Origin: an uncultured Oscillospiraceae bacterium | Lineage (GTDB): Bacteria > Bacillota > Clostridia > Oscillospirales > Oscillospiraceae | Length of the DNA: 64,000 nucleotides | Direction of reading: 5' to 3' | NCBI GenBank assembly: GCA_944387055.1 | Contig: CALXDL010000063.1 | Location: forward strand, 100,035 to 164,034 | Shown here: positions 45,257 through 64,000 of the stretch, piece after piece | Layout of the letters: the number at the start of each line of letters is the position of its first letter | Position numbering within the stretch: the first letter of the stretch is position 1 | The notes under the pieces: generated by a model | The model's input: the letters and a program-made list of their open reading frames with translations, nothing else | What the model was told of the DNA's origin: nothing | Databases searched by the model: none | Program-made: the position numbers and the translations under genes

Positions 45257-46465
45257 TTATTGGGCAGCAGCGGTCTCTTTTTTGTTTCCGGTGATGGCAT
45301 CCATCAGCACAGCGATGGCACCGTCGCCAGTGACGTTGCAGGCAGTGCCGAAGCTGTCCTGTGCGATGTAGAGGGCAATCATCAGGCTGCACATGACATC
45401 GTTGAATCCCAGCATGGTCTGCAGGATACCCAGAGCTGCCATGACAGCGCCGCCCGGCACGCCGGGAGCGGCCACCATGGTGACGCCCAGCATCATGATG
45501 AAGGGGATCATCAGGCCCAGAGTGATGTCCCAGCCGTTGAGCATCATGATGGCGATGGAGCAGCTGGTGAGGGTGATGGTGGAGCCGGAGAGGTGGATGG
45601 TGGCGCACAGCGGGATGACGAACTCAGCGATGCGCTTGCTGACGCCGTTCTTCTTAGTGCACTCCACGTTGACGGGGATCGTAGCGGCGGAGGACTGCGT
45701 GCCCAGAGCCGTCACATAGGCGGGGATCTCATTCTTGATGAGGGCAAAGGGGTTCCGCTTGGCCACCGCACCGGCCACCACATACTGGAAGATGATGATG
45801 ATCACATGCATGGCGATGATGATGCCGAACACCTTGATGAACACGCTCATGATCTCCACGACCGTACCGGCGAAGGTCATGTTGGCGAAGATGCCGTACA
45901 CGTGGAAGGGCAGCAGGGGGATCAGGATGCCGGCCACCAGCTTCTCGATGATCTGCTGGACATCATTGAACACGTCCTTGAGGACCTTGCTGTGTGCCAG
46001 CGAGATGCCAAGGCCCAGGATGAAGGATATCAGCAAGGCAGTCATGACTTCCATCAGCGGGGGCATGTCGATGGTGAAGTATCCCGCCAGCATCGTCTCC
46101 TCAGCGTTGGCCGCGTTGTCCATGACGATGGAGCCCACATCCAGGAAGGAGGGGAACAACGTCATATCTACCGCATAGGCGAACGTACCGGAGATGAGGG
46201 TGGACAAATAAGCGATCCCGGCGGTGAGGGCCAGGGTCTTCCCGGCGCCATCGCCCAGGTCGGCGATACCGGGCACCACGAAGCCCACGATGATTAGCGG
46301 GATAGAGAAGTTCAAGAACTCGCCGAAGATATCATTGAACGTGGCGCCGATGCGGATGATGACGGGGAGATCCAGTTTCTGGGCAATAGTCCCCACGATC
46401 ACGCCCAGCACGATGGCGATGATCAGCTTGGGGAGCAGCCCCAATTTTTTCTTTTTCTGTTCCAT
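45257..46465 (-). CDS. Dicarboxylate/amino acid:cation symporter (DAACS family)
   Basis: A 402-residue symporter with the family landmarks: the serine-rich re-entrant loop TALGTQSSAATIPV, CATIHLSGSTITLT, and the C-terminal ligand region GVPGGAVMAALG and QDSFGTACNVTGDGA. It stands 93 bases behind a threonine ammonia-lyase gene on the same strand, so threonine or serine is the most likely substrate, taken up with sodium. ATG 46465 has only a weak ribosome binding site. Confidence 0.92.
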   Translation of the reverse strand: MEQKKKKLGLLPKLIIAIVLGVIVGTIAQKLDLPVIIRIGATFNDIFGEFLNFSIPLIIVGFVVPGIADLGDGAGKTLALTAGIAYLSTLISGTFAYAVDMTLFPSFLDVGSIVMDNAANAEETMLAGYFTIDMPPLMEVMTALLISFILGLGISLAHSKVLKDVFNDVQQIIEKLVAGILIPLLPFHVYGIFANMTFAGTVVEIMSVFIKVFGIIIAMHVIIIIFQYVVAGAVAKRNPFALIKNEIPAYVTALGTQSSAATIPVNVECTKKNGVSKRIAEFVIPLCATIHLSGSTITLTSCSIAIMMLNGWDITLGLMIPFIMMLGVTMVAAPGVPGGAVMAALGILQTMLGFNDVMCSLMIALYIAQDSFGTACNVTGDGAIAVLMDAITGNKKETAAAQ

Positions 46466-46558
46466 TTCTCTTCTTGCTCCGGCTCCTGCCGGAGTCCCCT
46501 CCTTATCCATGATTTGGTCTGCAGGGAACACATCCCCTGCAGGATCCATACAAGGTCT

Positions 46559-47752
46559 TCAGTGTTCCAGCAGCTCGTAGCCCTTGGCGCGCAGTGCCTC
46601 TTCGATCGCGTGGATGTGGTCGGCGTTGCGCGTCTCCATCACCATGTTGACGATGCAGGCGTTGACCTCAGAGTGCTCGTCCTCACGGGCATGGTCGATG
46701 CTGAGGATGTTGGCGCCGCTCTCGGCCACCACCTGCAGCAGCCCCAGCAGTCCGCCGGGACGGTCCGCCACTTTGGCGGAGATCTCAGCCACACGGCCGG
46801 CCTTGGTCAGGCCTCTGGTCACGATGCGGGAAAGGGTGGTGACGTCTACGTTGCCGCCGGAGACCACACACACAGTCTTGCGGGCGCTGGTATCCACTTT
46901 CCCGAACAGGCAGGCGGCCACAGACGTCGCACCGGCGCCCTCGGCCACGGTCTTCTGGCCCTCGATCAGTGCCAGGATGGCGGAAGCGATCTCATCCTCG
47001 CTGACGGTCACGATCTCGTCCACATACTTCTGGCACAGGTCGAACGTCAGGTCGCCGGGGGTGAGCACATGGATGCCGTCGGCGATGGTGTCGCCGTCCG
47101 CCACGGTGGTGATCTTCCCCTCCTTGCGGGACTCGTACATCGATGCCACGCTGGCCGCCTGGACACCGATGACTTTGCAGGAGGGCTTCAGGCTCTTGAT
47201 GGCGAAAGCGATACCGCTGATGAGGCCGCCGCCGCCGATGGGGCACACCACCTGCTCCACGTCCGGGAGCTGCTCGAGGATCTCCAGACCGATGGTGCCC
47301 TGGCCGGCGATGACATAGGGATCGTTGAAGGGATGAGCGAAGGTGTAGCCGTGCTCCTTGGTCAGGCGTTCAGCCTCCCGTGCCGCATCATCATACACAC
47401 CAGGGACCAGTACCACTTCCGCACCGTAGCCCTTGGTGGCCTCCACCTTGCTGATGGGCGCGCCGGCGGGCATGCAGATGATGGACTTGATCCCCAGCTT
47501 CGTAGCAGAGAGCGCGATGCCCTGCGCGTGGTTGCCAGCAGAGCAGGCGATGACGCCCTTGGAAGCCTCTTCCGGCGTCAGGGACCGGATCTTGTTGTAC
47601 GCGCCCCGGAGCTTGAACGCGCCGGTGAGCTGCAGGTTCTCCGCCTTGATGTAGATGTTCTCCCCGAGCTTCGGCGCCCGGTCCAGCGGCGTCCGGCGGG
47701 CGATGCCCTTGAGCGCCGACTGTGCGTCTTGGATCATTTCCAGTGTCAGCAT
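46559..47752 (-). CDS. ilvA: Threonine ammonia-lyase
   Basis: A 397-residue PLP enzyme deaminating threonine (and serine) to 2-oxobutyrate. PLP lysine in TGAFKLRGAYN, SAGNHAQG, the glycine loop IGGGGLISG, and a C-terminal ACT-type domain from about residue 325 (ISAKVADRPGGLLGLLQVV). The single ACT domain and length match the catabolic/TdcB-like type. Pairing with a symporter points to threonine fermentation rather than isoleucine synthesis. Confidence 0.95.
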   Translation of the reverse strand: MLTLEMIQDAQSALKGIARRTPLDRAPKLGENIYIKAENLQLTGAFKLRGAYNKIRSLTPEEASKGVIACSAGNHAQGIALSATKLGIKSIICMPAGAPISKVEATKGYGAEVVLVPGVYDDAAREAERLTKEHGYTFAHPFNDPYVIAGQGTIGLEILEQLPDVEQVVCPIGGGGLISGIAFAIKSLKPSCKVIGVQAASVASMYESRKEGKITTVADGDTIADGIHVLTPGDLTFDLCQKYVDEIVTVSEDEIASAILALIEGQKTVAEGAGATSVAACLFGKVDTSARKTVCVVSGGNVDVTTLSRIVTRGLTKAGRVAEISAKVADRPGGLLGLLQVVAESGANILSIDHAREDEHSEVNACIVNMVMETRNADHIHAIEEALRAKGYELLEH

Positions 47753-48050: not shown

Positions 48051-48082
48051 GCGGGACACCGGCTATCTGACCGGTGTCCCGC
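48051..48082 (-). terminator. Hairpin after the tandem gdh genes
   Basis: Perfect 12-bp stem GCGGGACACCGG with an 8-base loop, 17 bases past the gdh stop; no T-run. Confidence 0.65.
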
Positions 48083-48099: not shown

Positions 48100-49449
48100 T
48101 CACAGTCCCTGAGCGATCATCGCCGCGGCGATCTTCTTGAACGCGGCGATATCGCTGCCTGCGATCAGATCGTATCCCAGGTCATATTCCTCCGCGGCAG
48201 CTGCGGAGATGTCGTAGATATAGCTCATGGTCGCCCGCAAACGGCTGTCCACCTCTTTGCGGGACCAGCTGTAGCGGATGCTGTTCTGCACCATCTCCAG
48301 AGCGGAGACCACGACGCCGCCGGAGCCAGAGGCCTTGGAGCCAGCTGTCAGGACCCGAGGGCTCAGACGCAGCAGCCGCAGCGCCTCTGCTGTGGCGGGC
48401 ATGTTGGCTGCCTCCACATAATAGCGCACGTCATTGGCCACGATCGCCACCGCGTCCTCCACGTCGATCTCGTTCTCCGTGGCACAGGGGACCGCCACAT
48501 CCACTGCCACTTCCCAGGGCTTCTTCCCAGGGAAGAACTGCACGCCGAAGCGCTCTGCATAAGGCTCTATCCGGTCCTGTCCGCTGGTACGCAGGGCCAG
48601 CATGAAGTCGAACTTCTCCTGTGTGGTCACGCCATCCGGATCGTAGACATAGCCGTCCGGGCCTGATAAGGTCACGACCCGGCCGCCCAATTCCGCGCTC
48701 TTTCGGCACACGCCCCAAGACATGTTCCCGAATCCAGAGACCGCCAAGCGCTTCCCCTCCAGGGTCTCACCCTGGCGCTCCAGCATCCGGGCCAGGAAGT
48801 ACACGGTGCCGAAGCCCGCGGCCTCCTGACGGATCTTGCTTCCGCCATAGGTGAGGCCCTTGCCAGTGAGGGCGCTGCTCTCCGTCCGGCCGGACAGGCG
48901 CTTATACTGGCCGAAGAGGTAACCGATCTCCCGGGCGCCTACGCCGATATCGCCCGCAGGGATATCCGTGTCAGACCCGATGTGGCGGTAGAGGGCCGTC
49001 ATGAAGCTCTGGCAAAAGCGCATGATCTCCCGGTCGCTCTTGCCTCTGGGGTCGAAGTCCGCGCCGCCGGAGGCACCGCCGATGGGCAGGCCCGTCAGCG
49101 CGTTCTTATAGGTCTGCTCGAAGCCCAGGAACTTCACCACAGAGCGGTCGACGGAGGGATGGAACCGCAGCCCGCCCTTGTAAGGACCGATCGCACTGTT
49201 GAACTGCACCCGGTAGCCATGTCCCGTGTGGGCGATGCCCTGGTCGTCCATCCACGGGACCGTGAAGCTGAGCATCCGCTCCGGCTCCACCATGCGGGTC
49301 AGGAGGTCCAGCCGCTCATAGAGCGGCGCGTCCGCCTCCAGAGCGGGCCCGATCATCTCCAGCCAGGACTGGACGGCCTGGAGATATTCCGGTTCATCGG
49401 CATAGCGCTGCCGCAAAGCGGCGGATACGCGGGCAACATACTCGTTCAT
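48100..49449 (-). CDS. Glutamate dehydrogenase paralogue lacking the catalytic lysine
   Basis: A 449-residue protein of full length, closely resembling hexameric clostridial glutamate dehydrogenase ([40 protein letters not shown]). The catalytic-lysine motif normally reading GG(A/G)KGG is GGASGG here; the codon is TCC. The NAGG motif is replaced by SGSGG, and VAGANIAGF by IAGSDIAAF. Other substrate-pocket lysines remain. The frame is clean, so the gene is maintained. It may be a non-catalytic partner of the intact enzyme encoded 12 bases upstream, or have a new function. Ribosome binding site GAGGAGGCGG. Confidence 0.9.
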   Translation of the reverse strand: MNEYVARVSAALRQRYADEPEYLQAVQSWLEMIGPALEADAPLYERLDLLTRMVEPERMLSFTVPWMDDQGIAHTGHGYRVQFNSAIGPYKGGLRFHPSVDRSVVKFLGFEQTYKNALTGLPIGGASGGADFDPRGKSDREIMRFCQSFMTALYRHIGSDTDIPAGDIGVGAREIGYLFGQYKRLSGRTESSALTGKGLTYGGSKIRQEAAGFGTVYFLARMLERQGETLEGKRLAVSGFGNMSWGVCRKSAELGGRVVTLSGPDGYVYDPDGVTTQEKFDFMLALRTSGQDRIEPYAERFGVQFFPGKKPWEVAVDVAVPCATENEIDVEDAVAIVANDVRYYVEAANMPATAEALRLLRLSPRVLTAGSKASGSGGVVVSALEMVQNSIRYSWSRKEVDSRLRATMSYIYDISAAAAEEYDLGYDLIAGSDIAAFKKIAAAMIAQGL

Positions 49450-49461
49450 GCCGCCGCCTCC

Positions 49462-51084
<1,623 letters not shown>

Positions 51085-63870: not shown

Positions 63871-64000
63871 TCAGAATACGCCCTGCTCCATCATGGCCTC
63901 GGCCACCCGCTTGAAGCCGGCGATGTTGGCGCCTGCCACCAGGTTGTAGCCCAAGCCGTACTCCTCCGCGGCCTCCACGCTCATCTGGTAGATGGTGTTC
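63871..64000 (-). CDS. Glutamate dehydrogenase, C-terminal end only
   Basis: The last 43 codons of a third glutamate dehydrogenase; the gene continues beyond the right edge. The visible end, [21 protein letters not shown], carries the standard family C-terminus (VAGANIAGF), unlike the altered paralogue at 48100. GC-rich codon use is like that of the main chromosome. Confidence 0.88.
   Translation of the reverse strand, partial: NTIYQMSVEAAEEYGLGYNLVAGANIAGFKRVAEAMMEQGVF

Follow-up and report, generated by a model that had tools for sequence, protein, structure and literature searches.

Glutamate dehydrogenase (GDH) connects carbon and nitrogen metabolism. In the genome of an uncultured Oscillospiraceae bacterium, a full-length GDH gene which has lost the codon of the catalytic lysine is placed directly behind the gene of another GDH, and this locus raises the question whether such a gene is dying, codes for an enzyme of changed chemistry or serves a purpose beside its neighbour. 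Here we surveyed this gene, called pseudo-GDH, in the window (the whole stretch of 64,000 nucleotides that was analysed) and in related genomes. Judged by its sequence, pseudo-GDH is very likely both non-catalytic and functional, and we lean to the view that it is a fixed non-catalytic GDH subunit which works with the GdhA encoded upstream.

Gene structure and position

The locus has the following features, given with their coordinates in the window and the basis of each call.

48051..48082, minus strand: perfect 12-bp hairpin, 17 nt past the pseudo-GDH stop, without a T-run (sequence)
48100..49449, minus strand: pseudo-GDH gene, 449 aa, full-length GDH fold (ORF, Pfam, Foldseek)
49450..49461, minus strand: spacer of 12 nt, GGAGGCGGCGGC, with the ribosome-binding site directly after the gdhA stop (sequence)
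49462..50808, minus strand: intact NADP-type gdhA, 448 aa from the likely ATG, catalytic positions present (ORF, alignment)

The ORF reading of the window gave 449 open codons and a stop for pseudo-GDH, which agrees with the clean frame claimed in the original prediction. The 12-base gap with a ribosome-binding site was also claimed there and was found, with GGAGG standing in the spacer immediately 3′ of the gdhA stop. A longer GTG frame of gdhA reaches 50874. Scanning of the gene strand upstream of gdhA found no promoter-like site, so a single mRNA for the two genes would be deduced from their spacing. The terminator scan returned none with the T-run that its rule demands, and the hairpin at 48051-48082 is a possible transcript end of the pseudo-GDH gene.

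Both ELFV domains (Pfam PF02812 and PF00208) were found over the full length of pseudo-GDH. The best Foldseek match of its predicted model (mean pLDDT 79.8) is 1k89 with a TM of 0.95, and the nearest solved structure by sequence is the GDH of Clostridium symbiosum (618 bits; 58% identity). The neighbouring GdhA is nearest in the PDB to the enzymes of Corynebacterium glutamicum (626 bits) and then E. coli (548 bits). The neighbour had been introduced as an intact copy of the same gene, a description which has to be given up since GdhA comes from a different GDH subfamily and is about 50% identical (51%, 49.7%). Low pLDDT at residues 164-174 and 188-206 was considered as disorder specific to pseudo-GDH; a gdhA control modelled at matching alignment depth dips there too, and this reading was rejected. 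Of the alignments used for folding, one comprised 22 clean pseudo-GDHs (of 23) with 7 active GDHs, and the other 14 full-length paired gdhA (of 19) with 15 others.

With the NCBIfam model NF006929 (NADP-specific GDH) pseudo-GDH scores 599.7 bits against a cut-off of 536, so the model names the pseudoenzyme NADP-specific glutamate dehydrogenase, and name-based metabolic models may therefore count it as an activity. The lysine in GG[AG]KGG, which belongs to a catalytic GDH of this type, is Ala or Ser in 23/23 clean members.

Distribution of pseudo-GDH

The copies of pseudo-GDH were tracked in the genus and in samples of the family and the order, the latter two with an E-value cut-off of 1e-187, at which remote members would escape. 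In the genus 9 of 86 genomes carry pseudo-GDH, the window's own included. The family sample gave 14 carriers among 400 genomes, spread over 6 of 106 genera, of which two had been counted with the nine of the genus, and the order sample gave 2 among 394, both counted before. The remaining matches, 7 in the family and 2 in the order search with one shared, have the lysine and are ordinary GDHs. A scan of genome_contigs showed 3 pseudo-GDH loci among the 80 matches listed (two titled Oscillospiraceae, one Clostridia). The carriers come to at least 24 in total, and 23 of them have a clean full-length gene, namely the window gene and 22 others which are 76-87% identical; all 23 proteins differ.

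The 24th copy, in genome G023, is in two pieces. The first 180 codons follow gdhA at the end of contig C119; the second half is joined to active-GDH sequence on contig C57. The fused row (L149, C57:4813-6156) is the only one bearing a lysine and was considered as a pseudo-GDH copy that keeps it; this was rejected, since the row is a chimera whose N-half resembles active GDH and whose C-half resembles pseudo-GDH. The gdhA-side flank of C119 and the right flank of C57 correspond to opposite sides of a single locus in genome G076, which makes mis-assembly likely. From these sequences the chimera is probably a mis-assembly at similar sequences, with a real recombination still conceivable.

Residues lost and kept

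Residue numbers are those of C. symbiosum GDH unless the window gene's own numbering is given (e.g. Ser127 = K125). The 23 clean pseudo-GDH rows were compared with 138 other GDH rows, which include three cut gdhA rows of carriers (L037, L039, L120) and exclude 20 solitary gdhA taken up later. The residue counts omit the window copies (L001, L003, L007), ORFs below 300 aa, L013 and the chimeric row of G023, and the long ORF L122 was trimmed to its last 470 residues. The following residues of the window gene were placed by alignment.

49177..49179, minus strand: K91, retained (K89)
49105..49116, minus strand: Q112 and K115, retained (Q110, K113)
49069..49071, minus strand: Ser127 (TCC) at the catalytic lysine site (K125)
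48949..48951, minus strand: Asp167, catalytic, retained (D165)
48883..48885, minus strand: Thr189, replacing F187
48817..48819, minus strand: Ala211, replacing T209 (nicotinamide contact)
48721..48723, minus strand: Met243, replacing V241 (coenzyme loop GFGNV)
48325..48327, minus strand: Gly375, replacing N373 (nicotinamide site)
48304..48306, minus strand: Ser382, retained (S380)

The replacement of the catalytic lysine by serine had been read correctly from the window, and its TCC codon is present, at 49069-49071 rather than at about 49065-49070. The changes of NAGG to SGSGG (N373 is Gly and A374 is Ser, with a Ser before) and of VAGANIxGF to IAGSDIAAF were equally found as described. Position 125 is Ala in 19 and Ser in 4 of the clean pseudo-GDH rows and Lys in 136/136 of the other rows having a residue there, so the loss of the lysine is neither chance nor sequencing error.

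Among the 138 other rows, invariance of at least 97% holds at 131 positions. The pseudo-GDH rows (n = 23) keep 103 of these wholly and 13 partly; the other 15, replaced in over 90% of the rows, include K125, T209, V241, P368, N373, A374, A430, N431 and G434. In 23/23 rows T209 is changed to Ala, V241 to Met, P368 to Gly and N373 to Gly; A374 is Ser in 22 and Thr in 1. The new residues A209, M241, G368, G373 and D431 are themselves invariant across the clade. K89, Q110, K113, D165, N240, N347 and S380 are kept in all 23 rows, and so are F238, P262 and D263 of the coenzyme domain. Mutants of GDH at K125 are reportedly nearly inactive, and K89, Q110, K113 and S380 presumably bind the substrate by holding the carboxylates of glutamate or 2-oxoglutarate.

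Position 187 is aromatic in 137 of the 138 other rows (His in one) and Ala, Ser or Thr in all 23 pseudo-GDH rows. We take F187 to be a subunit-interface residue, and the change F187D is said to disrupt the hexamers of clostridial GDH; a report of F187 as an interface residue was not found by the literature search. The 20 further solitary gdhA have His in two cases and Ser in one at position 187, and Ala in two at position 434, which makes both positions more permissive than the catalytic ones.

In a study of Arabidopsis GDH1 (PMC7326016), Lys102 primes the water attacking the imine, Asp142 acts as the base, and the nicotinamide site is built from Asn312, Asn337, Thr185 and Asn216. From the offset between the sequences Lys102 was taken as K125, Asp142 as D165, Asn312 as N347, Asn337 as N373, Thr185 as T209 and Asn216 as N240. 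With this mapping the water-priming lysine and half of the nicotinamide seat are lost (T209 and N373 lost, N240 and N347 kept, in 23/23), and the residues presumed to hold the carboxylates stay. Sequence and published mechanism together suggest that catalytic activity has been lost. Special retention of the substrate site was considered and rejected as not significant (4/4 kept, p 0.38; 7/7 kept, p 0.18); being no better than that of other invariant positions, the retention by itself is no proof of selection for ligand binding.

Pseudo-GDH could also be an enzyme with changed chemistry or substrate for which the lysine is not needed. The retention of D165, of the Rossmann motif and of the 103/131 wholly kept positions would suit such an enzyme, as would the invariance of A209, M241, G368, G373 and D431 in the clade. 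We regard it as improbable, as two nicotinamide-site residues are lost along with the lysine and the replacement of at least 3 of 6 chemistry or nicotinamide positions has p 0.02 under random replacement, the six having been chosen after the changes were seen.

Origin and selection

The 24 pseudo-GDH rows cluster as a single clade (SH-aLRT 100, quick method), whose stem measures 0.45 changes per column. At a fork with support 98 this clade meets 33 clostridial-type GDHs (32 from the same family, one from another family of the order) and not the neighbouring GdhA, and pseudo-GDH as a direct duplicate of the neighbouring gdhA was rejected on this grouping. The 19 full-length paired gdhA form one clade as well (100/88), with four solitary genes outside. 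From these trees pseudo-GDH appears to have a single origin from a clostridial-type GDH and to have then joined one NADP-type gdhA lineage, and the tree of paired and solitary gdhA fits one gain with no later loss within the sample.

The dN/dS was calculated in 19 genomes with both genes full-length (171 genome pairs), a check which had been proposed together with the search for decay. The pairwise median is 0.20 for pseudo-GDH (range 0.07-0.44), a sign of purifying selection, and 0.17 for the paired gdhA (range 0.06-0.39); pseudo-GDH dN is 1.26 times gdhA dN. For all 23 pseudo-GDH rows (253 pairs) the median is 0.19. The distances of the two genes correlate (Mantel r 0.86 in 19 genomes; none of 5000 permutations gave so high a value), as the joint inheritance of adjacent genes would lead one to expect.

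A pseudogene or a sequencing artefact might be suspected from the loss of the catalytic residue and from the one apparently chimeric row on C57. Pseudogene decay was rejected, and we hold either explanation to be extremely improbable, as none of the 23 clean full-length members has a frameshift or an internal stop and the median dN/dS is low. Thus a selectively maintained pseudoenzyme is well supported. From the originally predicted pseudoenzyme with a function, this selective maintenance stands, through the absence of frameshifts, the dN/dS and the constant upstream gene; the mixed hexamers or sensing that went with it are conjectural.

Pairing with gdhA

A search for homologues with the same lysine change, and for a GDH gene beside them, was another check proposed. 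In 23/23 clean members, all with Ala or Ser at the lysine site, the upstream gene is gdhA, read from the same strand; 19 of these gdhA are full-length and 4 are truncated by the contig end. The split copy of G023 likewise begins behind gdhA. The gap from gdhA to pseudo-GDH is 11-13 nt in 15 of the 19 members measured (4 of the 23 are without measurement), and in the other four it is 24, 53, 170 and 302 nt, which is not tight.

Flanks were compared in 14 pair-bearing regions and on both G023 contigs, using our own gene calls and for genes within four of the pair. They mostly differ across the regions, and the pair of gdhA and pseudo-GDH stays. Flank families are shared by G038 and G046, by G076 and G023, and in one broad cluster by G165 and G405; the window and G076 share a flanking ABC-transporter ATPase, whose cluster also holds a longer ATPase of G405. 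Downstream of pseudo-GDH in the window, 45257-47752 on the minus strand codes for an ACT-domain PLP enzyme resembling threonine ammonia-lyase and for an SDF dicarboxylate symporter, neither of which was seen beside the pair in the other regions compared.

The gdhA of the paired type, at least 81% identical to the window's, was found in 10 genomes of the genus and another gdhA, 64-70% identical, in 54; no genus genome has both lineages at that cut-off. A comparison of paired gdhA with 20 gdhA from same-genus genomes lacking pseudo-GDH was set aside as uninformative, the two being separate lineages about 66% identical. The paired lineage was seen in 23 genomes, 19 with pseudo-GDH behind and 4 without (G079, G161, G183, G250), so that enzyme can do without this partner; G079 is only 52% complete, and its contig is without a second GDH behind gdhA. 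Between the paired genes and the four solitary relatives, one sharp difference was found in the numbered columns, at position 65, which gives little sign of co-adaptation between GdhA and pseudo-GDH. Position 65 is Glu in 18 of the 19 paired genes and Val or Met in the four solitary ones, and it is close to position 61, where pseudo-GDH has lost an Arg.

Pseudo-GDH may instead be a homomeric sensor of glutamate/2-oxoglutarate or of a nucleotide, or a moonlighting protein, and act on something besides GdhA, its adjacency reflecting co-regulation only. The complete GDH fold of the predicted model and the retention of the presumed substrate residues and of F238, P262 and D263 in 23/23 speak for it. 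We consider it unlikely, though worth keeping in mind, since all 24 carriers are linked to one gdhA lineage though their flanks mostly differ. The change of F187 to Ala, Ser or Thr in 23/23 also hints at altered self-packing, a weak point as 1 of the 20 solitary gdhA likewise has Ser.

The partner could alternatively be a clostridial-type GDH encoded elsewhere, the parent type of pseudo-GDH, to whose full-length same-genus copies it is nearer (56-59%) than to GdhA (about 50%). The window genome has further clostridial-type GDH genes with the lysine present, and 12 of 14 further carriers, at a lower threshold, show an additional GDH match, some as fragments only; the carriers of another comparison likewise have one. 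In G473 (96% complete) and G405 (86%), however, the adjacent gdhA is the sole other GDH match, an absence that is uncertain in draft genomes, and we give this partner little credence. If a partner is needed, GdhA is the candidate common to all carriers, as it is present in every one.

Proposed role

Pseudo-GDH is likely a regulator of GdhA rather than a dying gene, and our best guess, by analogy, is a regulation inside mixed hexamers through the kept dicarboxylate pocket. The two genes would be expressed from one mRNA, as their spacing suggests. GdhA and pseudo-GDH would then co-assemble into mixed hexamers, or pseudo-GDH would otherwise bind GdhA; substrate bound in the dead subunit may alter the activity or the domain closure of the live subunits, and glutamate synthesis would thereby answer to the levels of glutamate or 2-oxoglutarate. 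The mixed-hexamer model is taken from Thermus, where an inactive subunit type regulates the other.

Thermus gdhA and gdhB are tandem genes, and pseudo-GDH is like Thermus GdhA in being encoded beside an active GDH, at the split copy also. The Thermus pair belongs to another GDH subfamily, as the 3AOE chains score 148 and 190 bits against pseudo-GDH (P0001) and C. symbiosum GDH scores 618; the tree, which has no Thermus row, likewise places pseudo-GDH by the clostridial type. Within the accessible literature the GdhA/GdhB of Thermus thermophilus (PDB 3AOE), an inactive GDH-fold subunit with an active GDH, is the nearest known system, and PMC9570180 gives the inactive GdhA subunit of this heterohexameric GDH as regulatory. 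The gut pair differs in that its dead and live partners are of two GDH types about 50% identical. The Thermus pair forms a heterohexamer, whereas hetero-hexamers and a leucine-type effector regulation would extend to the gut pair by analogy only. It would be a case independent of Thermus in another GDH subfamily.

With the NAD-GDH of C. symbiosum (1BGV/1HRD) pseudo-GDH shares the fold, the type and the substrate residues, but K125, T209, V241, N373, F187 and others are replaced in 23/23. A more distant likeness is offered by the AdoMetDC prozyme of trypanosomes, a catalytically dead paralogue acting by heterodimerisation (PMC6221367); there too a dead paralogue pairs with a live partner, in an unrelated enzyme and organism, and an activation within the GDH pair would be conjecture.

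We tentatively put forward, as a possibility that falls short of likely, a second class of heteromeric GDH that evolved independently and is found in anaerobic gut bacteria, in which a dead clostridial-type subunit senses glutamate/2-oxoglutarate through its retained dicarboxylate pocket and gates the NADP-type GdhA that shares its hexamer. If true, a simple NADP-GDH would have become an allosteric switch of ammonia assimilation. The idea that an enzyme became regulated by taking in a catalytically dead relative of a different subfamily can be put to the test. The clade may also be used as a natural experiment in pseudoenzyme evolution, with apparently one origin, a known parent type and neighbour and at least 24 carriers. 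No published description of pseudo-GDH was found in a literature search outside of which most subscription journals lie, which is weak evidence of novelty.

A fragment of another clostridial-type GDH, its last 39 codons, was seen near the end of contig C63 at 63877-63993 on the minus strand of the window. Residues 1-412 of a GDH of this type stand at the end of contig C18, so the two pieces are probably one gene split by the contig break.
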